Part shown: in pieces, positions 4,571-29,915 of the stretch
How positions within the stretch are numbered: the stretch's first letter is position 1
How the letters are laid out: each line of letters opens with the position of its first letter
Assembly (NCBI GenBank): GCA_001296005.1
Contig: LJHR01000026.1
Coordinates: 1-64,000 of the forward strand
Length of the DNA stretch: 64,000 nt
Source: an alpha proteobacterium AAP38
GTDB taxonomy: Bacteria > Pseudomonadota > Alphaproteobacteria > Azospirillales > Azospirillaceae
Reading direction: 5' to 3'
The notes under the pieces: model-generated
Told to the model about the DNA's origin: nothing
What the model saw: only the letters and a program-made list of their open reading frames with translations
The model's database searches: none
Translations under genes and position numbers: made by a program

Positions 4571-4592
4571 CTTACTGAGAGCCAGACCGGGA

Positions 4593-5858: not shown

Positions 5859-6098
5859 TTGCGCTCCGTACATCACCGGATGGCGCATGGAAGGTGGCCC
5901 GGCTGGCCCCCGACCGATACGCCCCAACACCCCTGCGGGATGCCTGCTTCAAGGGGCGTCCTTGCCTTCTCCGGTTCCCGGTCCATCCCAGTGACGGGAG
6001 GCGGAACCCCAGGGCTGACAGTGACGCCCTCTACACACCTATTCAACAACACCCAAAGCGGCGGGATCAATATATACTTGTTCGCCACCGCTTCCGCT

Positions 6099-6722
6099 TT
6101 ACGCCACCTGGGTGAGACCACCCGGACGGCCAGCGATCACCTCATCGATGATCCCGAAGGCCTTGGCCTCCTCCGGGCTCATGAACTTGTCACGTTCCAC
6201 AGCCTTTTCAATGACATCCAGGCTCTGGCCCGTGTGCTTCACGAAAATCTCGTTGAGCCGCTCACGCAGGCGCAGGATTTCCTGGGCCTGAATCTCGATA
6301 TCGGCCGCCTGACCCTGTGCCCCGCCCGAGGGCTGGTGGATCATGATTCGGCTGTTGGGCAGCGAGAAGCGCTTACCCTTGCCACCACCGGCCAGCAGCA
6401 GAGCACCCATGGAAGAGGCCTGGCCCATGCAGATGGTCGCCACGGGGCAGCGGATATACTGCATCGTGTCATAAATCGCCAACCCGGCCGTCACGTAACC
6501 GCCCGGCGAGTTGATGTAGAAGGAGATTTCCTTGGTCGGATTCTCAGCTTCCAGGAACAGAAGCTGGGCACAGACCAAGCTGGCCACGGCATCGTTCACG
6601 CCACCGACCAGGAAGATGATCCGTTCCTTCAGGAGGCGGGAGTAGATGTCGTATGCCCGTTCGCCGCGGTTGGTCTGCTCGACCACCATGGGAACCAGCG
6701 CGTTCATCTGCGGTTCAATCAT
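6099..6722 (-). CDS. clpP: ATP-dependent Clp protease proteolytic subunit ClpP
   Basis: A 207-residue serine peptidase that forms the two-ring Clp chamber. The catalytic triad is visible and correctly spaced: Ser104 in GQASSMGA, His129 in MIHQPSG and Asp178 in ERDKFM, with the same 25- and 49-residue gaps as the E. coli enzyme. The start at MIEPQMN gives a normal length with a short propeptide. It lies between tig and clpX in the conserved tig-clpP-clpX order, all read leftward. Confidence 0.97.
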
Positions 6723-6749
6723 GATCCCTGCTTCGCTCCTAACCAGAAG

Positions 6750-6777
6750 CCGCGGGGTCCTGGATTGGCCCCCGCGG
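6750..6777 (-). other. Intercistronic hairpin between tig and clpP
   Basis: The 8-bp arms CCGCGGGG (6750-6757) and CCCCGCGG (6770-6777) enclose a 12-base loop. No T tract follows on the minus strand, so it is more likely an mRNA-stabilising or partial-readthrough hairpin than a full terminator. Confidence 0.45.
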
Positions 6778-6792
6778 TACTATATGGCTGCC

Positions 6793-13930: not shown

Positions 13931-14050
13931 CCAGGGCACAGAATTTTCTTTCAAATGGTCCGGGGATGGGGTAACGCCACCAACCGGCGGCCCCAAAAGC
14001 CCGGGACCGGTTCCTTCCACGACAAACCTCAAACCACGGAAGCAGAGGCT

Positions 14051-15460
14051 ATGTCTGATTTGGCCAAGTTCTTCGACCTGATCAAGGAAAACGACGTCAA
14101 GTATGTCGATTTCCGCTTCACCGACATCAAGGGGAAGGTTCACCACGTTTCCCAGCATATCTGCACTGTCGATGAAGATCTGCTGACCGACGGCGTCATG
14201 TTCGACGGCTCGTCCATCGCCGGCTGGAAGGCGATCAACGAGTCCGACATGACCCTGCTGCCGGACCTGTCGACGGCCGTCATGGACCCGTTCTCGGCCC
14301 AGCCGCTGCTGACCGTTCTGTGCGACGTGCTGGAGCCCTCCACCCGTCAGCCCTACAGCCGTGACCCGCGCTCCATCGCCAAGGCCGCTGAGCGCTACAT
14401 GGCGTCGGCCGGCATCGGCGACACCGCGTTCTTCGGCCCGGAAGCCGAGTTCTTCGTGTTCGACGACGTGAAGTTCGAAGTCTCGATGAACAAGGTCATG
14501 TACGAGTTCGACTCCGAAGAGGGTCCGTACAATTCCGGTCGTTCGTACGAAGGCGGTAACCTGGGTCACCGTCCAGGCGTCAAGGGCGGCTACTTCCCCG
14601 TGGCCCCGATCGACAGCGCCCAGGACCTGCGCGCCGAGATGCTGACGGTTCTCGCCGAGATGGGCGTCGAAGTCGAGAAGCACCACCACGAAGTGGCCGC
14701 CTCGCAGCATGAGCTGGGCGTCAAGTTCGGCACGCTGGTCAAGATGGCCGACGGCATGCAGCTGTTCAAGTATGTGGTCCACAATGTGGCCCATCAGTAC
14801 GGCAAGTCCGCGACCTTCATGCCGAAGCCGGTGTTCGGCGATAACGGCTCGGGCATGCACTGCCACCAGTCGATCTGGAAGGACGGCAAGCCGCTGTTCG
14901 CCGGCAACCAGTATGCCGACCTGTCGGAAACCGCCCTGTTCTATATCGGCGGCATCATCAAGCATGCCCGCGCCCTGAACGCCTTCACCAACCCGCTGAC
15001 CAACAGCTACAAGCGTCTGGTCCCGGGCTATGAGGCACCGGTGCTGCTGGCTTATTCCAGCCGCAACCGTTCGGCTTCCTGCCGTATCCCGCACGTGTCG
15101 AGCCCGAAGGGCAAGCGCGTCGAGGTCCGCTTCCCCGATCCGGGCGCGAACCCCTATCTGGCGTTCGCCGCCATGCTGATGGCCGGTCTGGATGGTATCC
15201 AGAACAAGATCCATCCGGGCGAAGCCATGGACAAGAACCTGTACGATCTGCCGCCCGAAGAACTGAAGGAAATCCCGACGGTTTGCCGCTCGCTGCGCGA
15301 AGCCCTGGAAAGCCTGAACGCCGACCGCGACTTCCTGAAGAAGGGCGACGTCTTCACCGACGACATGATCGACAGCTTCATCGAGCTGAAGATGGAAGAA
15401 GTGCTGGCGTTCGAAACCTCGCCGCACCCGATCGAGTACAAGATGTATTACAGCGTCTGA
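14051..15460 (+). CDS. glnA: Glutamine synthetase type I
   Basis: A 469-residue glutamine synthetase, exactly the length of the enterobacterial enzyme. It joins ammonia to glutamate in a dodecamer. Visible signatures include FDGSSIAGW, the ATP-site [10 protein letters not shown] segment (in [14 protein letters not shown]) and the adenylylation site [10 protein letters not shown]. The ATG at 14051 follows GGAAG and gives MSDLAKFF. The last codons (MYYSV, stop) are the left attachment site of the integrated element. The protein is intact, but its original 3' end and terminator now lie beyond 29819. Confidence 0.98.
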
Positions 15461-15461
15461 T
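15439..15461 (+). repeat. attL: core attachment site in the 3' end of glnA
   Basis: The 23 bases match 29819-29841 except at 15448 (T here, C at 29828). Both copies encode KMYYSV-stop or its equivalent, so integration regenerated a complete glnA end. Confidence 0.9.
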
Positions 15462-15488
15462 CTAAGCCGTTGTTATGCCTTGGGTTTC

Positions 15489-15531
15489 GAGGTGTCTCGG
15501 ACCCCAAGGTGTAGCAGTTCGGTGTAGCAGT
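15489..15531 (+). repeat. Left arm-type repeats of the element
   Basis: GGTGTAGCAGT occurs at 15508-15518 and 15521-15531, a 13-base period. GAGGTGTCTCG at 15489-15499 occurs inverted at 29763-29773. The same GGTGTAGCAG motif recurs near attR, so these are probably integrase or excisionase arm sites. Confidence 0.65.
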
Positions 15532-15551
15532 CAAGACGGCTCGTAGAGGGC

Positions 15552-15603
15552 AAAAAAAGGGAGTGGCTAGGGAGGCATACGGCCAACCCTGGTCACTCCC
15601 TTT
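15552..15603 (-). terminator. Terminator after the DUF3644 gene
   Basis: Arms AAAGGGAGTG (15556-15565) and CACTCCCTTT (15594-15603), with inner pairing AGGG/CCCT, are followed on the minus strand by seven T. It also stands in place of the lost glnA terminator. Confidence 0.8.
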
Positions 15604-15650
15604 GCTATTGGGCGTGGGTAGATCACGCACCTGATAGACGGACTAGCCGG

Positions 15651-16862
15651 TCATCGAAACTCGTCCCCACGTTCGCTCAGGTAGGTGCGGACGTGATCAA
15701 GCCAGGACGGGTACCAGTACCAACTACCGTCCGCCAGCGTGACCCCGTAGGCCTTCCCCCGGTCTTTTGCACCAACGGACTGCCACAGCTTCGTGTGCGC
15801 CGTCATGTTGAACCGCCGGAAGCCCTCTTTCTTCATCTGGTCCACTACCTGCTTTGGCTTCATCTTGGGGCGCTCCGTGTCCTTCAGCAGGAGCCTCAGT
15901 TTCTCGCCACGTTCACTGTCCCCCCGGATGAACTCCACAACCTGATCGGCCTTGCCCTTCGAGTTCACCGACTGCTCGATGTAGGCAACCCGGTAGGCGT
16001 AACGCGGATCAGCGACCATCTCATCCGTGAGCGCGTCTTCGTAGGCGATCTGCGCTGCCTGGATATGGGCAGGAAGGTCCGTCTCCTGGAGCAGGATGTT
16101 TCGCTGGTCTCTATCTATCGTACTGAACTGAAGGGCCAGCCCCATCTCCTTGTCGAGACCATACTGGGCACCGGCGATCTCCTTGATGGCCCTGTTGAAG
16201 TTGAGACAGCACGCCTGGAGCTTGGCTGAGATCGCATCATCAATACGATTGGTGAGCTGGTGCTCAATCTCGTGCCTGATGGCGATGAGGAAGCCGAGGT
16301 TGGTCTTGGTCGGCTCGTCCAGCGGGCAACCAGGATGCCGGAGACATTCCTCAAGTTCCCAATGCTTATCCGCGCCATGCCGAGTCTTAACGACCTCCTC
16401 CACTCCGCCGTTGGTTCGCTTATGGCGAATGTCCACCCCGTTGCGACGATAGTGCCAGTGAAGAAGGTAAGTGAAGGCGATCACGGCAGTGACGATGAAC
16501 AGCTCACTTTTGAACTGCGCACGGGGGTTGTTGAACCCTTGCACGGCGGCGAGCATTGCTTCCCGCGCTTTGATCAACAGCTCATCGCCGCGCACATGGA
16601 GGCCGGTAGTCGGGTCAAGGTGTGGCCAACTAGCAATGAAGTCGGCAAGCGCCTCCTCTGACGCGGCCTCTACCCCCCTGTGCTTTGTCTCACCCCGAAT
16701 CTCGGATATCCGCGCATGGTTGATGCTGCGGGTTGGTCGCGTGAAGTAGGCGAGGATGTCCTGGTCATTCAGACCGGTCGATGAGATGAACCGCTTCACC
16801 AGCGCGACTTCCCATCGCTCCAGCTTATTGTTCGAACTTCTAGCCTTCCTTACAGGTGCCAT
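15651..16862 (-). CDS. DUF3644 protein with a HEPN-type RX4H motif
   Basis: A 403-residue protein. The N-terminal part (about 14-60) resembles a small helical DNA-binding domain (RFISSTGLNDQDILAYF). The central part matches the DUF3644 family: LFIVTAVIAFTYLLHWHYRR, then the motif RHEIEH at 196-201, an R-X4-H arrangement as in HEPN ribonucleases, followed by a helical segment. Family knowledge: HEPN proteins act as RNases in toxin-antitoxin and abortive-infection systems; a nuclease role here is inference. I chose the ATG at 16862 behind GGGGGCG; the frame opens 16 codons earlier. It is the last of three leftward genes that begin at 19552. Confidence 0.75.
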   Translation of the reverse strand: MAPVRKARSSNNKLERWEVALVKRFISSTGLNDQDILAYFTRPTRSINHARISEIRGETKHRGVEAASEEALADFIASWPHLDPTTGLHVRGDELLIKAREAMLAAVQGFNNPRAQFKSELFIVTAVIAFTYLLHWHYRRNGVDIRHKRTNGGVEEVVKTRHGADKHWELEECLRHPGCPLDEPTKTNLGFLIAIRHEIEHQLTNRIDDAISAKLQACCLNFNRAIKEIAGAQYGLDKEMGLALQFSTIDRDQRNILLQETDLPAHIQAAQIAYEDALTDEMVADPRYAYRVAYIEQSVNSKGKADQVVEFIRGDSERGEKLRLLLKDTERPKMKPKQVVDQMKKEGFRRFNMTAHTKLWQSVGAKDRGKAYGVTLADGSWYWYPSWLDHVRTYLSERGDEFR

Positions 16863-16954
16863 AACGCCCCCACAACGGCGGACAGTTGCAATGGGGGTAG
16901 CATCCACCATTTCGAGTGAAGGGGCTATGCCTTGGACGCGATATCTTCTACGTT

Positions 16955-17416
16955 CTACTCACTTTTGCCTATGAGTTCACATCCCCGGTTCAATGTCTCC
17001 ACCGTCCAGCCGCCTTCCTCTATAAGTTGACGGAGCAACTGGATCGCTTCCGCATAAGCGGTTGTCCCTACACGACCGGCGGACTTCAACCGAGGACTTC
17101 CCCTGGTGATCAACAGGACTGCGACCTCCACGTCCATATTGTCAAACAAGCCCGCGTAAGTCTGGGGTTCGTTCCAGGCGAGCATCCGGACTGTAAACTC
17201 CCGAGGATCGACACGGAGCGACTGAGCAAGTGGCCGATAGCTTGAAGGTGGAACAGTTACACGGCCAGACTCATATGAGGAGATCATTGTGTAATGCTCA
17301 ATACCTACCAACAACGCCAAGTCCCCCTGCGTAAGACTATGGGATTTACGCAGATGGCTTATGTACGATCCCGCCCCTTCCTTGTTCCTCTTTACTGTCT
17401 CAGGACTCAAGCCCAT
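16955..17416 (-). CDS. XRE-family helix-turn-helix regulator
   Basis: A 153-residue protein. An XRE helix-turn-helix occupies about residues 15-72 (ISHLRKSHSLTQGDLALLVG...YESGRVTVPP). The C-terminal half is an unassigned helical domain (AYAEAIQLLRQLIEEGG). It sits between the SF2-like ATPase gene and the DUF3644 gene on the same strand. It is the likely repressor or antitoxin-like controller of this group, by position only. Confidence 0.8.
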   Translation of the reverse strand: MGLSPETVKRNKEGAGSYISHLRKSHSLTQGDLALLVGIEHYTMISSYESGRVTVPPSSYRPLAQSLRVDPREFTVRMLAWNEPQTYAGLFDNMDVEVAVLLITRGSPRLKSAGRVGTTAYAEAIQLLRQLIEEGGWTVETLNRGCELIGKSE

Positions 17417-17662
17417 CTTCCATTCTCCGCACGGCTCAGCAGACGATTGACATCGATACTCTGAAGGATGTCCATGTCACACTTCCTTTGCGGACTGCAC
17501 AGGTCAAGACCACACCCGTTAAACAAGCGAATACAAGTTAAGCGGCTACTCAACCCGCATCCTCATAGGCACGTCCCCGGCTGATATCTCCGGGCGAGGT
17601 CCGATGGCACCACAAGGGGGCTTGTGCCTCCCCATGGACCTCCGGAACCCCGCTCAGCAGAT

Positions 17663-19552
17663 TCATGCAGCGTCTTTGCCCTGCTCCAGTCCGTCCGGTG
17701 CGTCGGACACATCAGACGCAAGCTGGAACTTGGTGTAGTACCGCCCTCCTCCTGCCCTGATGACCCCGTTTGCGTGCAGTTCTTCCACCAGCCCACTGTG
17801 CCTCACCAGTTGCGTGAAGTGAGCAGGTTGGATGCCAAGCGCCTGACGCACCTGACGGAATAGGAGCTCATCGCCAGGAGCTGAGAACGCGGCCCACGCC
17901 AGAACATAGTCGTAGACTTCACGGGGGCGGCCAGACAACGCAGCCGGAACTGGACTCCATCGCACCACCTCCGCCTCGGGAAACACCGTTGGCAGGATCG
18001 AGGGAATGCCGCTGCTCACCGACGCGATGATGTAGGCGTCACAGGGCTGACAGGCATCGCCATCAGACCGGCGGACCCTCCCCCGGCAAAGGGCCTGGAG
18101 AATGTCATGGCCGAACTCCCCAAGCCGGGTTTGGTTGAGTTGATCCGCCGTGACGTCTTCGCCGCCACATGGAAGCCCCGCCCCAAGCCGCTTCAGGCCC
18201 TCATAGTGGCTCTCCCGCATGAACAGCGTCCCGGCCAGGATGATGTTCCCGATGTGGGAGTAGTTGTTGATGCCGGTATGCTTGCCCCAAGTGATGAAGT
18301 GCAGTCGCTCAGGGTTCACCTTGGCCCTCCTTCTGATCTTCTCCTCGACGTCGCCAACGCGGCTGTCTTTCTTGTGATGGACGATCAGCCAGTCTTCGGT
18401 CGGCTTGGTCTCGATGGTCCGACAAATGCCCTCGACAAGCTGATCACCGTTGGACTGCCAGGAGGATTTGCCACCACCCCGCTGCCAGACATGGATGCGG
18501 AGGTTGCGGTATGATTTCGGCGCTTCCGGCAGACGCTGAATGATGCGCCGACGTCGTTCCATGTCGGCGTAGGGAACCCGGAGGCGGCCCGACGCATCAA
18601 TGACAAGGAGCGGCGCAAGATCGGTGGGCATGGTTTCCTCGTAGTCCACGACGGCCCCGCCATACCGGCCATCGTTGCGGATGCGAACCTGTTTGCCGCT
18701 GAGTTGGAGGATGTCGGTGAGCAGTTCCCTCCTCTCCCGCACCAGTTCAGCGCGGACAGGATCAGGCTGATCTGCGGGCTCGAACTGCTCCAACAGCCAG
18801 CTTTCATTGACCCCACCCTCCCGAAGGAAGTCAGGCATGTCGAAGACAACGCTACCTGCGTTCCCAAGCTTCTCCAAACGCGCACGGATGGCATCGAAGA
18901 CCCCCACCAAACTCCGCACCAGCACAGGATGGATGAGCGACAGCGGCTGCAACAGACCGGCCAGGGCATAGACAGACACCGTGATCGGACGGCCCGGAAG
19001 CCAGCTTTCATCCCAGACACGGACATGCCGGGGAGCGCCCCCATAGAACAGCCGCGATGCGGTACTGAAAGGCCTTCCCTCCAGCTCCATTTCCAGACGA
19101 CGCTGGGTCGTGATCAGCACCCGTGCCGCGTCCGGCCTCGACTGTCCAAGCGCATTGACGCGGGCATCGCTGGTCAGCACCGACAGCGCCTCCGACGGCA
19201 GTTGGAGACCCCGAACAAGGTTCTCAATCTCGTCTAAGGTCCGGATGCAGAACAGCACCCCGACACCGTCATAGGCCGGATCGACCACCACCCTTCGGAC
19301 GAAGGCGCATACTGCCGTCGTCTTACCGATGCCAGGGTCCAGTGACGACAGATGGATCAATGGGTCACAGACACCATCCGCCATGTTCGCCATGGTCTGC
19401 ACAATGGCCCGGATGGCCGCGACCTGATCCACGCTTGGATAATGGTGGTGAGCGACAAACGATTCGGTGATCTCCGACATCGTTTCTTCGACAATAGAAC
19501 CCGCACCCCCGGTCTGTGAACGACAGAGGGCAATCACATTTCCAGTGTCCAT
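17663..19552 (-). CDS. Unrecognised SF2-like helicase/ATPase of the island
   Basis: A 629-residue protein I cannot place in a named family. Walker A is DPGIGKTT at 72-79, a DEAD-box-like WDES stands at 180-183, and a motif VI-like QALCRGRVRRSDG lies near 500, so the order fits a superfamily 2 helicase. A segment near residue 150 (LITTQRRLEME) may be motif Ia/Ib. The last 80 residues look like a winged helix (ELLFRQVRQALGIQPAHFTQLVRHSGL). There is no Shine-Dalgarno at the first ATG; the ATG at 19480 (residue 25) is an alternative. It is divergent from hsdM across a 430-base region and upstream of the XRE and DUF3644 genes. Confidence 0.7.
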   Translation of the reverse strand: MDTGNVIALCRSQTGGAGSIVEETMSEITESFVAHHHYPSVDQVAAIRAIVQTMANMADGVCDPLIHLSSLDPGIGKTTAVCAFVRRVVVDPAYDGVGVLFCIRTLDEIENLVRGLQLPSEALSVLTSDARVNALGQSRPDAARVLITTQRRLEMELEGRPFSTASRLFYGGAPRHVRVWDESWLPGRPITVSVYALAGLLQPLSLIHPVLVRSLVGVFDAIRARLEKLGNAGSVVFDMPDFLREGGVNESWLLEQFEPADQPDPVRAELVRERRELLTDILQLSGKQVRIRNDGRYGGAVVDYEETMPTDLAPLLVIDASGRLRVPYADMERRRRIIQRLPEAPKSYRNLRIHVWQRGGGKSSWQSNGDQLVEGICRTIETKPTEDWLIVHHKKDSRVGDVEEKIRRRAKVNPERLHFITWGKHTGINNYSHIGNIILAGTLFMRESHYEGLKRLGAGLPCGGEDVTADQLNQTRLGEFGHDILQALCRGRVRRSDGDACQPCDAYIIASVSSGIPSILPTVFPEAEVVRWSPVPAALSGRPREVYDYVLAWAAFSAPGDELLFRQVRQALGIQPAHFTQLVRHSGLVEELHANGVIRAGGGRYYTKFQLASDVSDAPDGLEQGKDAA

Positions 19553-19981
19553 GATAAATCCATAGATATCCGGGGTGGCCCATAGCCCCGTTCAAGGTTG
19601 CCCAGGAATGTTTAGTCATCACGTATTAGGGGCCTATAACGTCGCGACTTAACATTTCAGCACCATCAGTTGACGGCTGGTGCTGGTACTTCGGCATCAG
19701 GGGCGATCCGAGGTCCACAGACAGGCCGCATCTTTGGTCAATGGTGTCCTGTATCCGCGACAGTCGCCGCCGCTTCAGTCCCTTCAGACCCTGACTTCGG
19801 TCAGGCAAGGCTAGGCTTGCCCACAGACCCGCCAAAGACGTACCGTCGTCCCCGCCTAACCGGGGAGGGAAAGCAAAGAAGCTCAACACCCTGCGATAGG
19901 TGTGGATCGCTTAACCTTCCGACGCCGGTGTTGTCTTCACTGAAGCCACCCGGCTGACATGTATGGACCAATGGACAGGCA
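19553..19981. promoter_or_regulatory. Divergent control region between the ATPase gene and hsdM
   Basis: About 430 bases with no gene. It must hold promoters for both directions. The clearest element is an inverted repeat, CAGCACCA (19658-19665) and TGGTGCTG (19678-19685), with a 12-base spacer, which looks like a dimer operator. The XRE protein encoded nearby is a possible ligand. Confidence 0.5.
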
Positions 19982-21724
19982 ATGAACCAACAGGCCCTCT
20001 CCTCCTTCATCTGGTCGGTCGCCGACCTTCTGCGTGGCGACTACAAGCAGTCGGAATATGGTCGGGTGATCCTGCCGCTTACTGTCCTTCGCCGTCTGGA
20101 TTGCGTCCTGGAGCCGACCAAGGCCGCTGTCTTGGCGGAGCTGGCGGAGAAGGAGAAGCTGGGCATCAACCCAGAGCCCTTCCTGCTTCGGAAGTCTGGA
20201 CAGAGCTTCTTCAACACGTCGCCCATGGACATGAAGAAGCTGATGGGCGACCAGGACCATATCCGGGAGAACCTGTTCGCCTATATCGCGGGGTTCTCTG
20301 CCTCTGTCCGGGATATCTTTGAACGGTTCGAGTTCCATGCCCAGGTCGAGCGGCTGGCAAAGGCCGGGCTGCTGTATCAGGTGGCGGAGCGGTTCGCCTC
20401 CATCGACCTGCACCCCAGCCGGGTTGATAACCACCAGATGGGCTTGGTCTTTGAAGACCTGATCCGCCGGTTCGCGGAACTGTCGAATGAAACGGCGGGG
20501 GAGCACTTCACCCCCCGTGAGGTGATCCGCCTGATGGTGGACCTGCTGTTCATTGAGGATGATGACGTTCTGTCAAAGCCGGGGGTGGTCCGCACAATCT
20601 ATGACCCCACCGCCGGGACCGGTGGCATGTTGTCCATCGCAGGGGAGTGGCTGGAACAGCACAATCCCAATGCCCGTCTGACCATGTTCGGTCAGGAACT
20701 GAACCCCGAATCCTACGCCATCTGTAAGGCGGACATGCTGATCAAGGGTCAGGACGTGACGAACATCAAGTTCGGCAACACCCTGTCTGATGACGGCCAC
20801 CCGGCCAAGAGCTTCGACTACATGCTCTCCAATCCGCCGTTCGGCGTGGACTGGAAGAAGGTCGAGAAGGAGGTCCGCCGGGAACAGGAACGTGACGGCT
20901 TCAATGGTCGCTTCGGCCCCGGTCTGCCCCGCGTATCCGATGGGTCCATGCTGTTCCTGCTGCACCTGATCTCCAAAATGCGGCCCGTGGCGGAGGGGGG
21001 CAGCCGCTTCGCCATCGTCCTGAACGGATCACCCCTGTTCACCGGCGGTGCCGGGAGCGGGGAGAGTGAAATCCGCCGGTACGTCCTGGAGAATGATCTG
21101 GTGGAGGCCATCATCGGTCTGCCCACGGACATGTTCTACAATACCGGCATCTCCACCTATGTCTGGGTCCTGAGCAACCGCAAGCCCGAACACCGCAAGG
21201 GCAAAGTGCAACTGATCGACGCCAGCGCCATGTGGCAGAAGATGCGCAAGAGCCTGGGGTCCAAGCGCAAGGAAATGTCCGAGGATCACATCAAGGACGT
21301 AAGCCGCCTGTTCGGCTCGTTCGAAGAGGTGGATGCCGATGGCCGCCCCATCAGCCGCATCTTCCGGAACAGCGATTTCGGGTACCGCACCATCACCGTT
21401 GAGCGGCCCCTGCGCGACGAAAAGGGCCGGATCATCGTCGGGGAGCGGGGAAAGCAGAAGGGCAAGCCGCAGCCGGATTCGGCCTTGCGCGACACGGAGA
21501 ACGTGCCGCTGTCAGAGGATGTGGAGGCCTACTTCAAGCGGGAGGTCCTGCCCCACGCAGCGGACGCCTGGATCGACCATGAGAAGACCAAGGTTGGCTA
21601 CGAAATCCCGTTCAACCGGCACTTCTACGTCTTCCAGCCGCCTCGTCCGCTGGAGGAAATCGACGCCGAGTTGAAGGCCGTTGTGGGTCGTATCCAGACC
21701 ATGCTGGGTGAGGTGATGGCATGA
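19982..21724 (+). CDS. hsdM: Type I restriction-modification methyltransferase subunit HsdM
   Basis: A 580-residue N6-adenine methyltransferase. An N-terminal HsdM helical domain covers about 5-145. The SAM motif DPTAGTGGM is at 208-216 and the catalytic NPPF at 284-287. It forms the M2S modification enzyme with HsdS and the M2SR2 restriction enzyme with HsdR. Its stop overlaps the hsdS start as ATGA (21721-21724), so the two are translationally coupled. It is the first gene of a rightward four-gene operon. Confidence 0.95.
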
Positions 21725-23043
21725 CCTTCCCGCGCTACCCGGACTACAAAGACAGTGGTGTTGACTGGCTTGGAGAGGTGCCAGGACATTGGGCATCAAA
21801 ACCACTTTGGACGCTATTTCACCGGACCAAGAGAGTGGATTATGCTGACGAAACGCTTTTGTCGGTCTATCGCGACTTCGGAGTCATTCCAAAGTCTAGT
21901 CGAGATGACAATTACAATAAGCAGTCTGAAGACCTCAGCTTATATCAGCTCGTCGTGTCCGGCGATCTTGTTATCAACAAGATGAAGGCGTGGCAGGGCT
22001 CTGTCGCTGTGTCTGGTTTTCGTGGGATTGTTAGCCCAGCATACTTTGTGTATGAGGCGCTGCATCAGGAGAACTCGCGGTATCTACATTACCTTATGCG
22101 TTGCTCAAACTACACGGAAGCATACCTGGCCCTCTCAAAAGGTATCCGAATCAATCAGTGGGACTTGGAACCGCAGTATCATTCACGACTGCCGGTGTTG
22201 CTACCTCCTGCTGCCGAGCAATCCGCCATCGCCGCCTTCCTAGACCGCGAGACGGCCAAGATCGACGCCCTGGTAGCCGAACAGGAGCGCCTGATCCAAC
22301 TGCTGAAGGAGAAGCGCCAAGCCGTCATCTCCCATGCCGTCACAAAGGGGCTCGACCCGAATGTCCGGATGAAGGACTCCGGCGTGGAGTGGCTTGGGGA
22401 GGTGCCGGAGCATTGGACCGTTGCCCCCGTTGGTGCGCGTTTTTCGGTTCAATTAGGAAAGATGCTAGATTCGTCAAAGATAACCGGAGAATACCTGCGA
22501 CCTTATCTGCGCGTGTTCGATGTGCAGTGGGGTTGTATCAATACCGATGAACTGCCGTACATGGACTTTGATGAAAATGATAGAGAGCGATTCCAACTTC
22601 GAAATGGAGACCTTCTTGTTAACGAAGGTGGAAGCTATGTTGGCCGCTCAGCCATTTGGTTAGGAGAACTGGACGAGTGTTACTATCAGAAGGCTTTGCA
22701 CAGATTGCGTCCACGTACACAAGATGACTTGTCAAAATTTTTCTACTACGTGATGTTCTTCGCTACTCACCTTGGCGTTTTCGTTGCCAATGGGAACCAA
22801 GCTACTATCGACCATTTGACCGCTGAGGCATTCAGAAGGTATCGATTTGCCTTCCCTCCTGCCTCAGAACAAGCCGCTATTTCCGACTACCTCGACCATG
22901 CAGTGGAGGGACTGGACAGGCTTGAGAATGACGCAGTACTTGGCATCCAACTCCTTAAAGAACACCGCTCCGCCCTCATCTCCGCCGCCGTCACGGGCAG
23001 GATCGACGTGCGCGGCCTTGTCCAGGTCGAGGATGCCGCCTGA
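21721..23043 (+). CDS. hsdS: Type I restriction-modification specificity subunit HsdS
   Basis: A 440-residue DNA-recognition subunit with the usual two half-site domains. Each target-recognition domain opens with almost the same phrase, [15 protein letters not shown] at about residue 10 and [15 protein letters not shown] at about 218. Each is followed by a conserved helix ([20 protein letters not shown] and [19 protein letters not shown]) that sets the spacer length. The two recognition domains are clearly richer in A+T than hsdM, hsdR and the conserved helices, a sign of domain exchange. The target sequence cannot be predicted here. Confidence 0.94.
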
Positions 23044-23600
23044 TGGACCGGGAGGAAGCCAGGACACGTCCCCTGTTCGAGGAGGTCACTCCGGCCATCT
23101 ATCGCGAGGATGCATGGTCGGGTCCGCACGGCTTTCTCTTCGATGCAATGACCCTGCTGAATGGTCGGGAGATGTCCCAGCAGTTCCTGGACGCGGCGGA
23201 CCATCTGGTTGAGGGTATCCGACGGCTGGACCATGAGGATTACCGGATCGGCTTCCCGATCCTGTTTCTGTGTCGGCACGCCATCGAACTGGTCCTGAAG
23301 TCGGTTCTGCCCGGTGCCCCGAAGCATCACAGGCTGGATGCCCTGTTCGCTGACCTCTACTGCCAATACCGTGATGCCAGGGGCTATGACGTCCCGGAAT
23401 GGATAACCACGCGCATTGCAGAACTTGCCCAGTTTGACCCGACATCAACGGCGTTCCGATATCCGGAGGTCGGTGAAGCCGGGTGGAAGTCAGCCGGGCT
23501 GCATGTGGGTGTCTACCACCTGCGCCGGGCCATCCACGAACTGCACACTGTCATCCCCACAATCGCAGAAGCCAGTAGGACGCAGAGGCCCACGATATGA
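23043..23600 (+). CDS. Small HEPN-like protein inside the hsd operon
   Basis: A 185-residue soluble, mostly helical protein. Its core FPILFLCRHAIELVLKSVL (about 71-89), followed by a short helix HRLDALFADL, resembles the HEPN-type helical bundles seen in many small defence-associated proteins; it lacks a clear RX4-6H motif. Its start overlaps the hsdS stop by one base, and its stop overlaps the hsdR start as ATGA, so it is made together with the restriction enzyme. The function is unknown: an accessory, an inhibitor or an RNase are all possible. Confidence 0.6.
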   Translation: MDREEARTRPLFEEVTPAIYREDAWSGPHGFLFDAMTLLNGREMSQQFLDAADHLVEGIRRLDHEDYRIGFPILFLCRHAIELVLKSVLPGAPKHHRLDALFADLYCQYRDARGYDVPEWITTRIAELAQFDPTSTAFRYPEVGEAGWKSAGLHVGVYHLRRAIHELHTVIPTIAEASRTQRPTI

Positions 23601-26600
23601 CCCTGCACAAGGAAGTCGCCTTCGAGGATGAGATTTGCGCCGCGTTGGCCGCGCGCGGATGGCATCACGACACCGCCGATGCCGCCGGGTATGACAGAGC
23701 ACGGGCACTGTTCCCCGCCGATCTGGTCGCCTGGGTGCAGGAGACACAGCCCAAAGCGTGGGAGACCCTGACCAAGAACCATGGTGCTGCGGCCCAAACA
23801 ATGCTGCTGGACCGTGTCCGCAAGCAGATGGATGACCGGGGAACGCTGGACGTCCTTCGCCATGGCATTGACCTTCTGGGGTTGCGCGGCACCCTGACCC
23901 TGGCTCAGTTCCGTCCTGCCCTGTCGATGAATACGGAGCTTCAGGCGCGGTTCACTGCCAACCGGCTGCGCGTTGTTCGACAGGTTCGCTATTCGCTCCA
24001 CAATGAGAATTGCCTTGATCTGGTGCTGTTCCTGAACGGCATCGCGGTCGCCACCGCAGAGCTGAAGTCCGACTTCACCCAATCGGTCGAAGACGCGGTG
24101 GACCAGTACCGGTTCGACCGCCAGCCGAAGCCCAAAAGTCAGGGTGCCGCCGAACCCCTTCTGGATTTCCCGCGTGGTGCCCTGGTTCACTTCGCCGTCA
24201 GTGGGTCCGACGTCCGCATGACCACGAAACTGGCCGGGGCGGAAACCACCTTCCTGCCCTTCAACAAGGGCCATGACGGGGGTGCTGGCAATCCGCCGAA
24301 CGGCACCGGGCACCGTACAGCCTACCTTTGGGAAGAGGTATGGGCACGCGACTCCTGGCTGGAGATCATTGGCCGCTACCTGGTTGCCAAACGCGACAGC
24401 AAGAAGCAGGTCACCGGCATCATCTTCCCCCGCTATCACCAGCTCGACGCCACGCGGAAGCTGGTTGCCGCTGTATTGGATGAAGGGCCGGGACGGAAAT
24501 ACCTGATCCAGCATTCGGCAGGGTCGGGAAAGACCAACTCCATCGCCTGGACAGCACATTTCCTGGCGGACCTGCACACAGTGGGCGATGCCAAGGTCTT
24601 CGATACTGTGGTGGTGGTGAGCGACCGTACCGTGCTGGACACCCAGCTACAGGAGGCGATATTCGACTTCCAGCGGCAGACCGGGGTGGTTGCCACGGTG
24701 AAGGGCGAAGGAAAGAGCAAGAGCGGGGAACTGGCCGAAGCCTTCTCCGGTGGCAAGAAGATCGTCGTCTGTACGATCCAAACCTTCCCCTTCGCGCTGA
24801 ACACCGTGCGGGAACTGGCCGCCACCGAGGGCAAGCGGTTCGCCGTCATCGCGGATGAGGCCCATTCTTCCCAGACCGGGGAGGCCGCCGCGAAGCTGAA
24901 ACAGGTGCTGTCCGCAGAGGAGCTGAAGGAACTTGGCGACGGCGGAGAGGTCAGCGCTGAAGACGTGCTGTCCGCTCAGATGGCAGCCCGAGCGGCTGAC
25001 TCTGGCATCACCTATATCGCATTCACGGCCACGCCGAAGTCGAAGACCCTGGAGTTGTTCGGTCGCCTCCCACGGCCCGACCTGCCCGCCGGCGAAGGCA
25101 ACACGCCGGAGCCCTTCCACGTCTATTCCATGCGACAGGCCATTGAGGAGCGTTTCATCCTCGACGTCCTGAAGAACTACACCCCCTACAAGCTCGCCTT
25201 CCGCTTGGCCCATGAGGGTGCGGAGATTGATGACAAGGCCGTGGAACGAAGTGAAGCGGTCAAGAACATCATGGGGTGGGTTCGTCTCCATCCCTACAAC
25301 ATCTCCCAGAAGGTTGAGATCGTTGTTGAGCATTTCCGTCAGAACGTGGCCCCGCTCCTGAATGGTCGTGCAAAGGCCATGGTGGTGACGGCCAGCCGGT
25401 TGGAGGCGGTGCGTTGGAAGATCGCCATCGACAAGTACATCAAGGCCAGCGGGTACAAGATCGGCACCCTTGTCGCCTTCTCCGGCGAGGTACTGGACAA
25501 GGACACCGGACCCGACCCCTTCACCGAGCACAGCAGCAGCCTTAATCCGACCCTCAAGCGCCGTGACATTCGTGATGCGTTCGCGGAGCCGGACTTCCAG
25601 GTGCTGCTGGTGGCGAACAAGTTCCAGACAGGCTTCGACCAGCCGCTGCTGTGCGGGATGTATGTGGATAAGCGACTGGCGGGGATACAGGCTGTTCAGA
25701 CGCTGTCACGACTGAACCGCGCCCACCCCGGCAAGGACACCACGTACATCCTCGACTTTGTGAACGAGCCCGGTGAAATCCTTGCTGCCTTCCGTACCTA
25801 CTACAAGACGGCGGAACTGGAAGGCGTGACCGACCCGAACATCGTGTTCGATCTCCGCGCCAAGCTGGACGCCACGGGCTACTACAGCGACGGCGAGGTC
25901 GAGCGCGTGGTGAACGTGGAGTTGGACCCGAGGTCAAGCCAGGGACAGCTTGCAGCAGCGCTGGAGCCCGTGGCCGACAGGCTTCTGAGGCGGTTCAAGG
26001 CAGCCTACGAGGCGAAGAAGGCCGCTGAGGCCGTTGAAGACCATGCCGCAGAGCTGGAAGCGACCAACAAGATCAACGAGTTGGTGTTGTTCCGGAGGAA
26101 CCTGGGGGCGTTCATCCGCCTCTACGGCTTCTTGTCGCAGATTTTCGACTACGGCAACACGGCGTTGGAGAAGCGAGCAATCTTCTTCCGCCGCCTCCTG
26201 CCCCTGCTGGAGTTTGGCCGGGAGCGAGAAGGTGTTGACCTGTCGAAGATCACCCTGACCCACTACGCCCTCAAATCGTCGGGAAAGCAGACGCTGGCGC
26301 TGGGCGACGGTGAAGCGGAGAAGCTGAAGCCGATGTCCGAGACAGGAAGCGGGCAGGTCCAGGAGAAGGAAAAGGCGCTCTTGGCGGAGATCATCTCCAG
26401 GGTGAACAGCCTGTTCGAGGGGGAACTGACAGACAACGACAAGCTGGTCTACGTGAACAATGTCCTGATGGGCAAACTGCTGGAGTCCCCTATCCTTGTG
26501 CAACAGGCGGGCAACAACACGAAGGAACAGTTTGCCAACTCACCGGACCTCGCCAACGAGATACTGAACGCCATCATGGACGCCTTCGCCGCCCACACAG

Positions 26601-26731
26601 CCATGAGCAAACAGGCCTTGGACTCCGAGAAGGTACGGGAGGGGCTTCGGGATATCCTCCTCGGTCCCGCCCAACTCTATGAAACGCTTCGGCACCGGGC
26701 GGCACGCACGACGCCCATGGTTATCTCCTGA
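23597..26731 (+). CDS. hsdR: Type I restriction endonuclease subunit HsdR
   Basis: A 1044-residue restriction subunit. The N-terminal nuclease has the PD-(D/E)XK pattern with Asp141, Glu155 and Lys157 (AELKSDF), and QxxxY-like QYRFDR at 170. The translocase has Walker A GSGKT at 309-313, DEAH at 420-423 and FTATPKSKT. A helical C-terminal part binds the methylase core. It cuts DNA after translocating from an unmodified site. It is coupled by ATGA overlap to the preceding small gene and ends the operon. Confidence 0.95.
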   Translation: MTLHKEVAFEDEICAALAARGWHHDTADAAGYDRARALFPADLVAWVQETQPKAWETLTKNHGAAAQTMLLDRVRKQMDDRGTLDVLRHGIDLLGLRGTLTLAQFRPALSMNTELQARFTANRLRVVRQVRYSLHNENCLDLVLFLNGIAVATAELKSDFTQSVEDAVDQYRFDRQPKPKSQGAAEPLLDFPRGALVHFAVSGSDVRMTTKLAGAETTFLPFNKGHDGGAGNPPNGTGHRTAYLWEEVWARDSWLEIIGRYLVAKRDSKKQVTGIIFPRYHQLDATRKLVAAVLDEGPGRKYLIQHSAGSGKTNSIAWTAHFLADLHTVGDAKVFDTVVVVSDRTVLDTQLQEAIFDFQRQTGVVATVKGEGKSKSGELAEAFSGGKKIVVCTIQTFPFALNTVRELAATEGKRFAVIADEAHSSQTGEAAAKLKQVLSAEELKELGDGGEVSAEDVLSAQMAARAADSGITYIAFTATPKSKTLELFGRLPRPDLPAGEGNTPEPFHVYSMRQAIEERFILDVLKNYTPYKLAFRLAHEGAEIDDKAVERSEAVKNIMGWVRLHPYNISQKVEIVVEHFRQNVAPLLNGRAKAMVVTASRLEAVRWKIAIDKYIKASGYKIGTLVAFSGEVLDKDTGPDPFTEHSSSLNPTLKRRDIRDAFAEPDFQVLLVANKFQTGFDQPLLCGMYVDKRLAGIQAVQTLSRLNRAHPGKDTTYILDFVNEPGEILAAFRTYYKTAELEGVTDPNIVFDLRAKLDATGYYSDGEVERVVNVELDPRSSQGQLAAALEPVADRLLRRFKAAYEAKKAAEAVEDHAAELEATNKINELVLFRRNLGAFIRLYGFLSQIFDYGNTALEKRAIFFRRLLPLLEFGREREGVDLSKITLTHYALKSSGKQTLALGDGEAEKLKPMSETGSGQVQEKEKALLAEIISRVNSLFEGELTDNDKLVYVNNVLMGKLLESPILVQQAGNNTKEQFANSPDLANEILNAIMDAFAAHTAMSKQALDSEKVREGLRDILLGPAQLYETLRHRAARTTPMVIS

Positions 26732-26847
26732 GACAAGGGGGCGTCAGATAATTTCCCGTTCACAGTTGGCAGTCCCGGAAAAGTGTAGGCAGAAAAACAC
26801 AGTTCTGAAATGTAGAATCAGATCAATACCGGTTGCTTCTGCGAACC

Positions 26848-27519
26848 TCATGTTGCGGGGTTTATCCTGACAAGGACGTTCTTGACTGCCTGTGCCGTCC
26901 ACGCCCCTCCTCGGGCGGTACAGACGTTCAACTCAGTCAATCGCCGCGCTATGGCACCGAATGAGAGCCGTTCATTCTGAAGACGCTTCACAATCGGGCC
27001 GACCTTATCGGCGTAGTGGTCAGCTCGGTCTTTCGCGGCGCGTCCACCTTCACGGAAGACTTGCCCGTTGAAGCCCATAGGATTGCCGAGCCGTGTCCCG
27101 CGTGCCTTGGCAGCCTCCAACGCTGCCTTGGTTCGCGCACTGATGCGCTCCCGTTCATCCTCGGCGATCACAGCCATAATACCCACCGTCAGACGGTTGG
27201 CGTTCGGCATATCCACAGCGACGAAGTTCACCCCGTCGTCACGGAGCTTCAGCAGGAAGGCCGCATTGCGTGACAACCTGTCCAGCTTGGCGATGAGCAG
27301 GGTCGCCCCTGTCAGGCGACACAGCTCCAGCGCACGGTCGAGTTCTGGCCGGTCATTGCGCTTCCCAGACTCTACCTCGGTGAACTCTCCAAGGAGCTTC
27401 CAGCGTCCTCCATTGAGGAACGAACCAACGGCCTCCCGTTGCGCCTCCAGCCCCAACCCACTGCGCCCCTGCTTCGCTGTGCTGACCCGGTAGTAAGCGA
27501 CGAACTTGCCCTCAGCCAT
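26848..27519 (-). CDS. Serine recombinase (resolvase/invertase family)
   Basis: A 223-residue small serine recombinase. The catalytic domain begins FVAYYRVSTAKQGRSG with Ser13 as nucleophile, followed by the LIAKLDRLSRNAAF segment and the E-helix (AEDERERISARTKAALEAAK). The C-terminus has a helix-turn-helix resolvase domain (LSFGAIARRLTELNV). The start at 27519 is chosen over an ATG four codons earlier because it matches the usual MAEGKFVAYYRVS start. It sits convergent to hsdR; inverted target sites next to it were not found. A resolvase or a DNA invertase role is equally open. Confidence 0.88.
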   Translation of the reverse strand: MAEGKFVAYYRVSTAKQGRSGLGLEAQREAVGSFLNGGRWKLLGEFTEVESGKRNDRPELDRALELCRLTGATLLIAKLDRLSRNAAFLLKLRDDGVNFVAVDMPNANRLTVGIMAVIAEDERERISARTKAALEAAKARGTRLGNPMGFNGQVFREGGRAAKDRADHYADKVGPIVKRLQNERLSFGAIARRLTELNVCTARGGAWTAQAVKNVLVRINPAT

Positions 27520-28102
27520 GGCCGAACCCATCCATCTAAAACAGCCTAACGAGCGTTACGGTGTTTTGGATAACCGACTGGTGAGTCGCGGTCAACCTTG
27601 GTCCTCGGTGCTATCTCCCGGACAAGGGAGGCAGGGGGGACGCAAGATGGGACCCAAATCGACCCCAGGGGGAGTGCCACCCCACCCATTTCACAAAGAG
27701 GCTCCAGGGTTGTTGTTCGTTGTTGATGTCGGAGATGAGGCTCTGGCGCTGTTCAACGGACTTGCCATGGTGAAGCAGTGCGGTGAACCACCTAACCCCA
27801 AGACAAAGCGACCCTGGCCACCGCCGCGACGCTCATTTAGATCATGGCACCGCATCTGCCCCAGAAGCTGATATCCGCGCCAACGCGCTTGGCCGTGTGT
27901 TCGCCTTGGGGACCGTCCTCGGTCTGTGGAGATAAGGTGTGCATGAGAGAACGGCGGCGCTGAGAAAAGTCGGCAAGAGGACCACAGCACACCGGCCCCG
28001 GCCCTATGGCGGATTGCAGCCAGCCATGGTGACACAGGATTGCCGATAGCCATCGAACTGAGCCGAAGTGGGACGGTCACCAACCAGTAACCAGACCTGC
28101 AA
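27520..28102. other. Intergenic region between the two recombinase genes
   Basis: About 580 bases in the element. Open frames on both strands exist but show no known family and poor codon patterns, so I call none. It may hold the serine recombinase promoter and decayed cargo. Confidence 0.4.
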
Positions 28103-29698
28103 TCAGCGACTTAGGTGATCCAGCGACACCCCAAAGTCGAAACGGCTGATCACGTCCAGCAAGTCCCTCGTCGTCAACAGCTTGCCGCCGTAGACCCCTG
28201 CCGTGATCCCTTGCAGCGCATGCCCAACAATCTTCTTGATTGTGCTCTCCGGCACCCCGCCGTTCATGAGCGTTGAGACGAACGTGTGACGGAAGGAGTG
28301 GAAGACCAAGCGTCCGCGCCCAAGGCCGATCAAGTGACGAAACTCGGACCACCACTGGACGAAATACTGGCTGTACCGGCCTTCACTCCCGACGGTGATA
28401 TCCGGCCACATGTGGTCGCGGCCATCATCTGCCATGGCCTCTCGGTGGGTCAGCAAACCAAGGTCGATGAGGCGTGGGTGGAGCGGAACCACACGGTTGC
28501 CAGCCTTGGTCTTCGCGTCTGTAACGCGGAAGCACCAAACACCATCGACCTCGGTCACATCGTCAACGCGTAGCTTTGCGGCCTCCTCGACACGGAGACC
28601 GGAGTGCAGCGAGATCAGTGGAAGCCAGTACTTGTGGTCCTTCTCCAGACACGAGCCGGGCCGGTCACGGCGATCCGGTCGCCAGTGCCCAACATATAGC
28701 GGCGAAGAGAACAGCACACGCAGGTCTTCCGGTGTGAAGGCCTCCCGTTCGCTGTCCTCCTTGGGTGGAGCAAGACCCCGCAGCGGGTTGTCGATCTGGC
28801 ACTTCCCCTCCAGCTTGGCCCAGTTAAACAGTGCGCTGACCGTTCGGAAGTGCAACCCGATGGTGTTGTTGTTCAGTTCGAGATCGCTCAGGAAGTCCCG
28901 CCAGTTACGCACGTCGTCACGCGTGACGTCATCCACCGGCTTGTTGGACAGTGTCTCCGCAAACAACCGGAGCTTGGGCAGTGTGGTCTTCACAGTTCCT
29001 GCCTTCCACTGACCATCTCGCTGCTTGGAATTGATGTAGAGTCCAACCAGTTCGTTCAGAGGCATCGACTTGGGCTTTGATGGCGGGATGGAAACCACAC
29101 CACCTCGCCGCAAAGAGGCCGCGAACAAGGGATCAGTCGGTGCCACCCCGAAGTCCCCATTGCGCCATGCGGCGGTGAGCTTGAAGTACTCTGCCTGAGC
29201 CCGAAGGACGGTCCAGCAAACGCGCTTGTACTCCGGGCTATCAACGGGGATGTCGAGACCAGCATCCCGAAGCAGCGCATCGGCGATTTTGACAGCGGGA
29301 TTCAGGTCGTTCTCCGCGAGAGCCTTTTGGACACGGGCTCGCATTCCTTCCAAGACAGACGCCTCAGCTTCTGGTGCGAGCGGCGTGCCGCCAACACTGA
29401 GGAGAGACTGAAACTTTTCCCGGACGACTGTCTTGGTTTCCCATTGGGCAACGACCTGACGGAACCACTGACGGGCCAGATCGTCAATCTGCTCGGCTGA
29501 AAGGGTCGGCGTGTTCATGATGACTGTGAAAAGGCGGTCTGCTGCTGTGCTCAGTTCCCTGGCCCTGCAAAGGGCGGTTGGCTTGTGACGGCTATGGAGC
29601 GACTTCAGAAGCTCCCGCCGCCCGATGCGGCAAACGAGCTCCCGAGGTACCCGCCGACGCCAGTGATATACATCGCCACGCCGAAGGATGTGAACCAT
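28103..29698 (-). CDS. Tyrosine site-specific integrase with DUF6538-like N-terminus
   Basis: A 531-residue integrase. The N-terminus (MVHILRRGDVYHWRRRVPREL) matches the DUF6538 type often found on island integrases. A core-binding SAM-like domain lies at about 205-300. The catalytic set is complete: Arg369 (SGLRVEEA), His467 and Arg470 (HSFRHTF), His493 (VGHALQG) and Tyr503 (AGVYGG). The ATG at 29698 follows GAGGCG; the frame is open 24 codons further upstream but would run through arm repeats. It lies beside attR, reads away from it, and should recombine the glnA 3' end with its attP. Confidence 0.94.
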   Translation of the reverse strand: MVHILRRGDVYHWRRRVPRELVCRIGRRELLKSLHSRHKPTALCRARELSTAADRLFTVIMNTPTLSAEQIDDLARQWFRQVVAQWETKTVVREKFQSLLSVGGTPLAPEAEASVLEGMRARVQKALAENDLNPAVKIADALLRDAGLDIPVDSPEYKRVCWTVLRAQAEYFKLTAAWRNGDFGVAPTDPLFAASLRRGGVVSIPPSKPKSMPLNELVGLYINSKQRDGQWKAGTVKTTLPKLRLFAETLSNKPVDDVTRDDVRNWRDFLSDLELNNNTIGLHFRTVSALFNWAKLEGKCQIDNPLRGLAPPKEDSEREAFTPEDLRVLFSSPLYVGHWRPDRRDRPGSCLEKDHKYWLPLISLHSGLRVEEAAKLRVDDVTEVDGVWCFRVTDAKTKAGNRVVPLHPRLIDLGLLTHREAMADDGRDHMWPDITVGSEGRYSQYFVQWWSEFRHLIGLGRGRLVFHSFRHTFVSTLMNGGVPESTIKKIVGHALQGITAGVYGGKLLTTRDLLDVISRFDFGVSLDHLSR

Positions 29699-29703
29699 GG
29701 TTT

Positions 29704-29717
29704 CGCCTCGTGAGGCG
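29704..29717 (-). promoter_or_regulatory. Hairpin covering the integrase ribosome site
   Basis: On the minus strand CGCCT-CACG-AGGCG forms a GC-rich 5-bp stem that includes the AGG of the integrase Shine-Dalgarno, six bases before the ATG. It could hold translation down until unfolded. Confidence 0.4.
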
Positions 29718-29722
29718 TCGCT

Positions 29723-29812
29723 GGTGTAGCAGTGCTGTGTAGCAGCGACGCACGTTGATACACGAGACACCTCAAAGGCTTAGGCAAACTGCGGCTGAGG
29801 ACGGTGTAGCAG
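29723..29812 (+). repeat. Right arm-type repeats of the element
   Basis: GGTGTAGCAG stands at 29723-29732 and 29803-29812. A one-mismatch copy TGTGTAGCAG is at 29736-29745, again 13 bases from its neighbour. CGAGACACCTC at 29763-29773 is the inverted partner of the left-end GAGGTGTCTCG. Two copies lie just upstream of the integrase start, so the integrase may repress its own gene. Confidence 0.65.
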
Positions 29813-29818
29813 GGAATC

Positions 29819-29841
29819 CAAGATGTACTACAGCGTCTGAT
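29819..29841 (+). repeat. attR: displaced original 3' end of glnA
   Basis: Matches attL at 22 of 23 bases and again reads MYYSV-stop. The sequence beyond it (29842 on) is chromosomal and includes the terminator expected for glnA. Confidence 0.88.
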
Positions 29842-29885: not shown

Positions 29886-29915
29886 ACCCCCGCCGGGCAA
29901 CCGGCGGGGGTTTCG
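29886..29915 (+). terminator. Terminator, probably the original glnA terminator
   Basis: The 11-bp perfect arms ACCCCCGCCGG and CCGGCGGGGGT enclose a GCAA loop and are followed by TTCGCATTT. It stands 46 bases after the displaced glnA end at attR, so before insertion it ended the glnB-glnA transcript. Confidence 0.8.

Follow-up and report, generated by a model that had tools for sequence, protein, structure and literature searches.

Islands with a tyrosine integrase at the 3′ end of the glutamine synthetase gene glnA in Alphaproteobacteria

The dusA-specific integrases and their islands (PMC4482086; IMEVchUSA3 in PMC8409611) offer, in the available text of these sources, the closest described parallel to the locus reported here: one integrase family is tied to one protein-coding gene in many species, the cargo is diverse, with the integrase as the one shared gene, and part of the entered gene is replaced while its function is kept. 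More generally, the available text of PMC12884075 places 56.6% of the islands of the TIGER database in tRNA or tmRNA genes or between genes, and reports that many islands lie in protein-coding genes and that the entered gene is often reconstituted by the island. We analysed a window of 64,000 nucleotides (the whole stretch under study, positions 1 to 64,000 of contig LJHR01000026.1) from the alpha proteobacterium AAP38, in which the 14.4-kb segment 15439-29841 is very probably an integrative element: a mobile defence island with its own tyrosine integrase, whose chromosomal attachment site (attB) consists of the last codons of glnA, the glutamine synthetase gene. In contrast to the dusA islands, it is the 3′ end of glnA that is entered here, the last codons, the stop codon and a terminator-like hairpin are supplied, and both the gene and the hosts are others; with glnA as its target, the integrase falls outside the dusA family. 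Neither integration at glnA nor a glnA-targeting integrase family was described among the matches listed in our literature search, and the TIGER/Islander tables, which lay outside this search, may list such islands. No mention of DUF6538, a domain of the window's integrase, was found in the literature searched. Four papers that pair glnA or glutamine synthetase with islands do so in other senses in their available text (PMC3826726, PMC10872708, PMC539331, PMC5133609), and glnA is not named in the available part of PMC11476347.

The features on which the delimitation of the element is based are the following:

14051-15460, plus strand: glnA, glutamine synthetase (open reading frame (ORF) 13955-15460, start codon inferred)
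15439-15461, plus strand: attL core, 23 bp, with T at the variable position against C in nine of ten congeners
28106-29698, minus strand: tyrosine integrase, 531 amino acids, with DUF6538, SAM-like and catalytic domains
29819-29841, plus strand: attR core, 23 bp, the native glnA end left behind
29886-29911, plus strand: likely native glnA terminator hairpin, a perfect 11-bp inverted repeat, now 14.4 kb from glnA

The two cores, CAAGATGTATTACAGCGTCTGAT on the left and CAAGATGTACTACAGCGTCTGAT on the right, differ at a single position; the 23-bp core with one mismatch claimed in an earlier note on this DNA is therefore present at both ends, with correct coordinates and orientation. The left core covers the end of glnA, and the codons for K-M-Y-Y-S-V and the stop codon sit inside it. 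In the 5.78-Mb genome of the strain, a 21-bp core occurs at those two sites only, with up to two mismatches allowed, and control matches numbered zero. The genus set comprised 11 genomes, i.e., the window's genome and ten congeners (G and L numbers denote genomes and loci, respectively). The window's GlnA is 88-99% identical to that of nine congeners, and the pattern of the glnA end has a single match in each of the ten (that of G003 at a contig edge), with no match to the TCN-type version of the pattern in any of them. The earlier note had proposed a search for relatives in which glnA is directly followed by the sequence from 29842, and this empty site was found in four of the nine congener loci compared (L017, 95.5% identity over 1478 bp; L016, 91.6% over 1460 bp; L018, 81.7% over 1462 bp; L019, 80.2% over 1385 bp), while the right flank matches L020 and L021 over 73 and 29 bp only and has no match in L022-L024. 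The direct-repeat cores at both ends thus match an uninterrupted attB in relatives, as expected of an integrative element. The 11-bp inverted repeat of the native terminator is also found 3′ of glnA in congeners.

The tyrosine integrase, which had been described as intact and adjacent to attR, is indeed an open frame; it points away from the right core, and 121 bp separate its start from that core. Residues R369, H467, R470, H493 and Y503, which we take to be the catalytic ones, are invariant in six aligned integrases. According to the first, codon-specific surveys, only the window had a doubled glnA end; these surveys were misleading, because one copy uses other codons in other islands, and they were overturned by the integrase searches. 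A blind pattern, a glnA end without glnA before it (codon ahead of the core not starting with T), gave six matches in the genome contigs, against about 11 expected by chance as estimated from base counts. Four of them are ordinary glnA ends of other lineages, one (L081) is unexplained, and one (L085) is an island in Roseospirillum parvum (Rhodospirillaceae). Its integrase is 48% identical to the window's over 535 amino acids and is separated from the core by 113 bp, pointing away from it; 6.9 kb to the left, glnA ends with a second core, and CTGTGTAGCAG occurs at both ends.

These two integrases, aligned and used as a query against 297 genomes from R. parvum's order, gave 29 matches at E ≤ 1e-40. 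A second alignment, of six integrases that all come from glnA sites, gave 15 matches at E ≤ 1e-50 among 82 genomes of the family to which the window belongs and 9 matches among 385 genomes drawn from across the class; both of these counts include the strain's own genome. The loci returned numbered 43 (L097-L116 and L125-L147). In 15 of them a glnA-end core lies close to where the integrase begins, namely in the window, R. parvum and 13 others, and a tRNA gene is present in none of these 15 loci. Fourteen of the core-bearing integrases are at least 43% identical to that of the window (the one of G068, which has an internal stop, was compared in two pieces), and the integrase of G499 is 33% identical over the 320 amino acids present, cut by a contig end. 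By comparison, the other 28, more distant loci have no core, and 19 of them contain a tRNA gene (Gln, Ser, Glu, Met or Arg). The cores of the window and R. parvum were known beforehand and the alignments were made from glnA-site integrases, while no locus was picked by its core; without these two, cores are found in 13 of 13 close-group loci versus 0 of 28 distant ones. The glnA gene itself lies within the fetched stretch in 12 of the 15 loci; the loci of G693 and G499 run into contig edges, and G050 has its glnA 31.7 kb further left, behind another element.

In a maximum-likelihood tree of 30 integrases, the 13 glnA-site rows fall on one side of a 100/100 branch, and the target labels change once, a number as low being reached in none of 500 shuffles. 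The tree leaves out G068 and G499, includes 13 tRNA-labelled rows (L094 by repeat only) and four of unknown target, and has no outgroup root. Close relatives of the integrase thus share attB and group together, and they are also found at this end of glnA in a second genus of the family, presumably Azospirillaceae, and in the order of R. parvum. In genus g12, which is probably Azospirillum, a window-type island is present in 8 of 45 genomes. A protein scan with the single integrase returned nothing from the viral contigs and no tblastn-confirmed relative in the genome contigs, and the two-row alignment had no match in the viral contigs either. Relatives found by tblastn in the plasmid and phage collections were all below 60% identity; the window integrase gave 83 and 84 records there, and the full-length plasmid matches ranked highest among those listed reach 29%. 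Twelve viral contigs carried the glnA-end pattern; none has a GlnA match by tblastn, so these are chance or unrelated matches. Elsewhere in the strain's own genome, one contig carries two further, distant integrases (G000:C17:110581-111378 and 125149-125997; L094 and L095); one has a tRNA-Glu gene nearby, the other a repeat that exactly matches the repeat linked to tRNA-Glu in L093.

The proposal that the core rebuilds the stop codon of glnA was examined at the junction pairs of 13 islands, including G050, whose left junction was read in L193, and is supported by them. Every junction copy encodes xMYYS(V/A/S)-stop, and the C-terminus of GlnA is the same on both sides in 13 of 13 pairs. Eight pairs differ (window, L089, L118, L120, L148, L149, L150 and L154), all by synonymous changes, which include Ser AGC versus TCG or TCC, i.e., two or three base changes; the pairs of L119, L151, L152, L153 and L155 are identical. 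Given that several islands are close relatives, the eight differing pairs do not represent eight independent cases. Where the left flanks differ, identity within the pair narrows to about AGATGTA, so that the attL codons to the right of this stretch appear to come from the element. The window has TAT in attL versus TAC in attR, and TAC is found in nine of ten congeners (TAT in L019); the T of attL was therefore most likely brought by the element, which would place the crossover to its left. The g12 genomes have a TCN-type (Ser) glnA end in 41 of 45 cases and AGC-type ends in four, three of which are left junctions of these islands. Finally, in L151-L155 the right copy reaches about 25-30 bp further into glnA, with at most three mismatches.

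Next to the cores, both ends of the window's element carry short repeats, and the left end a hairpin:

15508-15517, plus strand: P′ arm-like site 1, GGTGTAGCAG
15521-15530, plus strand: P′ arm-like site 2, 13 bp from site 1
15558-15600, plus strand: left-end hairpin, candidate replacement glnA terminator (-31.3 kcal/mol versus a minimum of -18.5 in 20 shuffles)
29723-29732, plus strand: P arm-like site 1, GGTGTAGCAG
29736-29745, plus strand: P arm-like site 2, one-base variant TGTGTAGCAG, 13 bp from site 1
29803-29812, plus strand: P arm-like site beside the right core

Arm motifs shared by the two ends had also been claimed, and the four exact copies of GGTGTAGCAG in the 64-kb window (at 15508, 15521, 29723 and 29803; 0.04 expected) are all located there. 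Two related 10-mers, 13 bp apart and about 64-98 bp from the core start, are present at all 13 left ends with scores of 7-10 out of 10, and in 12 of them this score was reached by at most 3.6% of composition shuffles; at the right ends, a pair scoring at least 8 was found in 13 of 15. The motif itself differs by subgroup (GGTGTAGCAG, GGTGGACCAG, GGTGTACC and GGTGGTACAG). Furthermore, all 13 left ends, of which five (L151-L155) are near copies, have a hairpin with a T-rich tail, whose folding energy (-18 to -31 kcal/mol) is in each case below the lowest of 20 shuffles. A stricter scan for perfect stems gave a plus-strand site in nine of the 13 (seven the same hairpin, two elsewhere). Since integration displaces the presumed native terminator of glnA, the left hairpin is best read as its replacement.

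Two further observations concern glnA ends of this kind. In L181 (G059) and L184 (G063), a P′-arm-like motif and a hairpin are found roughly 46-90 bp beyond the stop codon of glnA, and the family-wide integrase search found no close integrase in these two genomes; the motif and hairpin are possibly scars of lost islands. To the right of attR in L120 (reverse complement, 17967 onward) and L121 (reverse complement, 1147 onward), the sequence has the look of an island left end, with an arm-like motif, AGTCAAGAAG and a run rich in GC, as if an older island or its scar lay behind the right core.

Because the left end carries a replica of the last codons, arm-like repeats and a terminator-like hairpin, integration is best understood as a replacement of the glnA end. 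The attachment site of the circular form (attP) would consist, in this order, of the P arms, the glnA-end replica, the paired P′ arms and the hairpin. Strand exchange would occur in the left part of the core, at about AGATGTA, the integrase presumably being bound to the arms; the chromosomal last codons, stop codon and terminator would be carried to the opposite end of the element, as attR, and glnA would then finish with the synonymous codons, stop codon and hairpin of the element, the latter acting as terminator. The element may still be able to excise and transfer today.

The same gene end also receives islands of a second type, found in four g12 genomes (G040, G050, G054 and G076), while a fifth, G052, has a second-type left end only. 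The loci are:

L197 1366-2412; L193 18743-19789 / L149 443-1489; also L199 and L202: second-type integrase
L198, L200, L201, L203 and L204: second-type islands, glnA side

The second-type integrase (348 amino acids, PF00589 only) is oriented towards the right core and stops about 66 bp short of it, and tblastn with the window integrase gave no match in these islands at E ≤ 1e-3. The first copy shares about 96% identity with each of the other three, and the second-type islands may therefore be one recent lineage. The two types stand in tandem at glnA in G050, with cores at C1:256179, 287854 and 300777: the second-type island (31.7 kb) comes first and is followed by the window-type one (12.9 kb). 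Inside the former, a 537-amino-acid DUF6538 protein (L193 15069-16679) is 25.5% identical to the window integrase and has no Pfam integrase-domain match. At the second-type right junction, a frame ...SAPKPSEFNA(F/L)KVEEEY runs into the core in four of four cases. One might speculate that the glnA end is a general docking site for defence islands in these Alphaproteobacteria, which two or more highly divergent integrase lineages have come to use independently, and that a portable 3′-end cassette (synonymous codons, stop codon, arms and terminator) is swapped at each integration, resetting the 3′ processing of glnA and potentially coupling mobility to nitrogen status; we regard this wider scheme as improbable.

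Besides the integrase, the window's island contains the following genes:

15651-16910, minus strand: DUF3644 protein, candidate defence protein PDC-S19 (Pfam 7.5e-49; PADLOC PDC-S19 2.7e-119)
16955-17416, minus strand: helix-turn-helix (HTH) regulator, XRE-type (PF01381, 2.7e-6)
17663-19552, minus strand: 629-amino-acid protein without family match, with a P-loop-like stretch DPGIGKTT, judged by eye
19982-21724, plus strand: hsdM, type I methyltransferase, 81% identical to HsdM of the G637 sister island
21721-23043, plus strand: hsdS, type I specificity subunit, 35% identical to the G637 counterpart
23043-23600, plus strand: 185-amino-acid ORF between hsdS and hsdR, without family match
23597-26731, plus strand: hsdR, type I restriction subunit, 72% identical to the G637 counterpart
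26848-27531, minus strand: serine recombinase of resolvase/invertase type (PF00239, 2e-29), 59% identical to that of the L119 island

Known or candidate anti-phage families were recognised among selected ORFs in 9 of the 13 islands: type I restriction-modification (RM) and PDC-S19 in the window, a partial Eco29kI-type nuclease match with a C5 methylase and Vsr in R. parvum, type I RM with an inserted GmrSD protein in G637, the reverse transcriptase RT_UG20 in G083, Drt2 in G060, LmuA/LmuB Lamassu and a Cap4 nuclease domain in G516, an AriA/PtuA-like ATPase in G062, an AbiV-like HEPN protein in G045, and AbiJ-NTD4/PDC-S32 in G068. The few ORFs scanned in L119, L148, L149 and L154 gave no match to a defence family. 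Serine recombinases were matched in at least 7 of the 13 islands (window, L089, L118, L119, L120, L148 and L150), part of the ORFs being scanned. The integrases of the window and the G637 island are 47% identical, against 81% for HsdM, 72% for HsdR and 35% for HsdS; since the identity of HsdM and HsdR outstrips that of the integrase and HsdS, cargo and integrase seem to have partly separate histories. The place between hsdS and hsdR that holds the 185-amino-acid ORF in the window is where the GmrSD protein is found in the G637 island. A family of 606-629 amino acids is present in four islands (window 17663-19552; L151 11448-13280; L153 8453-10279; L154 12186-14006), the window's member being 38-39% identical to its three homologues. 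None of the four members has a Pfam match, and the window's has no PADLOC, NCBIfam, PHROG or PDB match; a new defence or maintenance protein is possible. Two cargo proteins of L149, of 1188 (3361-6927) and 478 (1834-3270) amino acids, are likewise without Pfam or PADLOC match.

Several results weigh against our interpretation of this locus as a gene-restoring integrative element and of its relatives as a family defined by the glnA end. The search of 297 genomes also gave 12 weaker matches outside the 43 loci counted, and 9 of the 28 distant loci have neither a core nor a tRNA gene. As for the arms, the left-end pair score of L151 was reached by 14.8% of shuffles, 13 bp, among the spacings tried (10-39), ranks first alone in 5 of 13 left ends, shares first place in 7 and comes second in L151, and the right-end pair is indistinct in 2 of 15 (L089 and L119). 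The left hairpin of the window has a weak T tail, and the stricter perfect-stem scan gave no plus-strand site in the window, L089, L149 and L119; it missed the native terminator too. The fourth AGC-type end of g12 is an ordinary glnA end in G061, without an island in the stretch read, and TAT is native in one congener, L019; because of these native occurrences, an element origin of single codons is likely, not proven. Finally, no relaxase, conjugation or phage structural gene was recognised with Pfam, NCBIfam or PHROG in the nine window ORFs scanned, shorter ORFs being excluded, so that among these nine nothing marks the island as an integrative conjugative or mobilisable element.

With respect to other explanations, the segment could be native and have been lost by the congeners, the repeat being due to chance or to an ancestral duplication of the glnA end. 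The doubled end is indeed present in just one genome of the genus, and the direction of the event is therefore assigned by parsimony; however, the single glnA-end match and missing TCN-type match in all ten congeners, the integrase and arm motifs at the expected places, and the recurrence of this arrangement, with other cargo, both in a second genus of the family and in R. parvum's order already contradict such a loss, which can hardly have occurred. A dead remnant, integrated precisely once and unable to excise because a directionality factor is missing or lost, is a possibility that we consider unlikely, though worth keeping in mind: no excisionase was identified, just the HTH protein (16955-17416) and the serine recombinase being recognised besides the integrase, and the sister integrase of G068 has an internal stop, whereas the integrase, both cores and the arm motifs look intact in the window, and the directionality factors of many integrases are very small or unrecognised. 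It is also rather unlikely that the island is a phage satellite, resembling the phage-inducible chromosomal islands (PICIs) and carried in helper virions, instead of a free-standing integrative element. Its small size (5.7-14.4 kb across the islands), its defence cargo, the integrase at one end and the paired direct attP motifs like those of HE-PICIs in the available text of PMC10111431 would fit a satellite, but among the nine window ORFs neither AlpA nor a gene for a primase or for packaging was recognised (no search for cos/pac sites was made), and none of 30 scanned sister-island proteins matches a capsid or terminase family.

If these islands are integrative elements as we propose, the glnA end is a recurrent and predictable landing site for anti-phage systems in Alphaproteobacteria. 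Defence systems, some of them perhaps unknown, can be expected in the interval that separates glnA from its former terminator, given that cargo such as the 1188-amino-acid protein of L149 and the 629-amino-acid family has no Pfam match. Single-gene specificity combined with restoration of the gene end also makes these integrases candidate insertion tools. Moreover, the group shows integrases with a protein gene as their target alongside relatives that lie near tRNA genes, and the coding constraint is visible as synonymous attP codons.

Among the distant relatives of the window integrase beside tRNA genes (e.g., L090, L091, L123 and L160), integrases of similar length (559-597 amino acids) start about 90-170 bp from the end of the tRNA gene in nine loci (L090, L091, L122-L124 and L159-L162), but they are only about 24-35% identical to the window integrase and are found at tRNA-Gln, -Ser, -Glu, -Met or -Arg instead of glnA. 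SGI1-type elements likewise use the 3′ end of a housekeeping protein gene (trmE or yicC; PMC8409611, available text); they differ in that SGI1 measures 43 kb and is mobilised by IncC plasmids through AcaCD-responsive promoters, while no transfer gene was recognised in the nine window ORFs scanned (AcaCD sites were not searched for). The HE-PICI integrases, as presented in the available text of PMC10111431, also form a clade defined by attB, with a possible replacement sequence in attP, paired direct motifs and tandem insertions; their targets, however, are prophage late genes in Enterobacteriaceae, whereas here it is chromosomal glnA in Alphaproteobacteria, without recognised satellite genes. 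Overall, the mechanism and architecture are those of known gene-restoring elements, as far as the available text of PMC10111431, PMC8409611 and PMC4482086 describes them; here they come with a target for which we found no description, a well-supported group of integrases, and the family of islands that they accompany.

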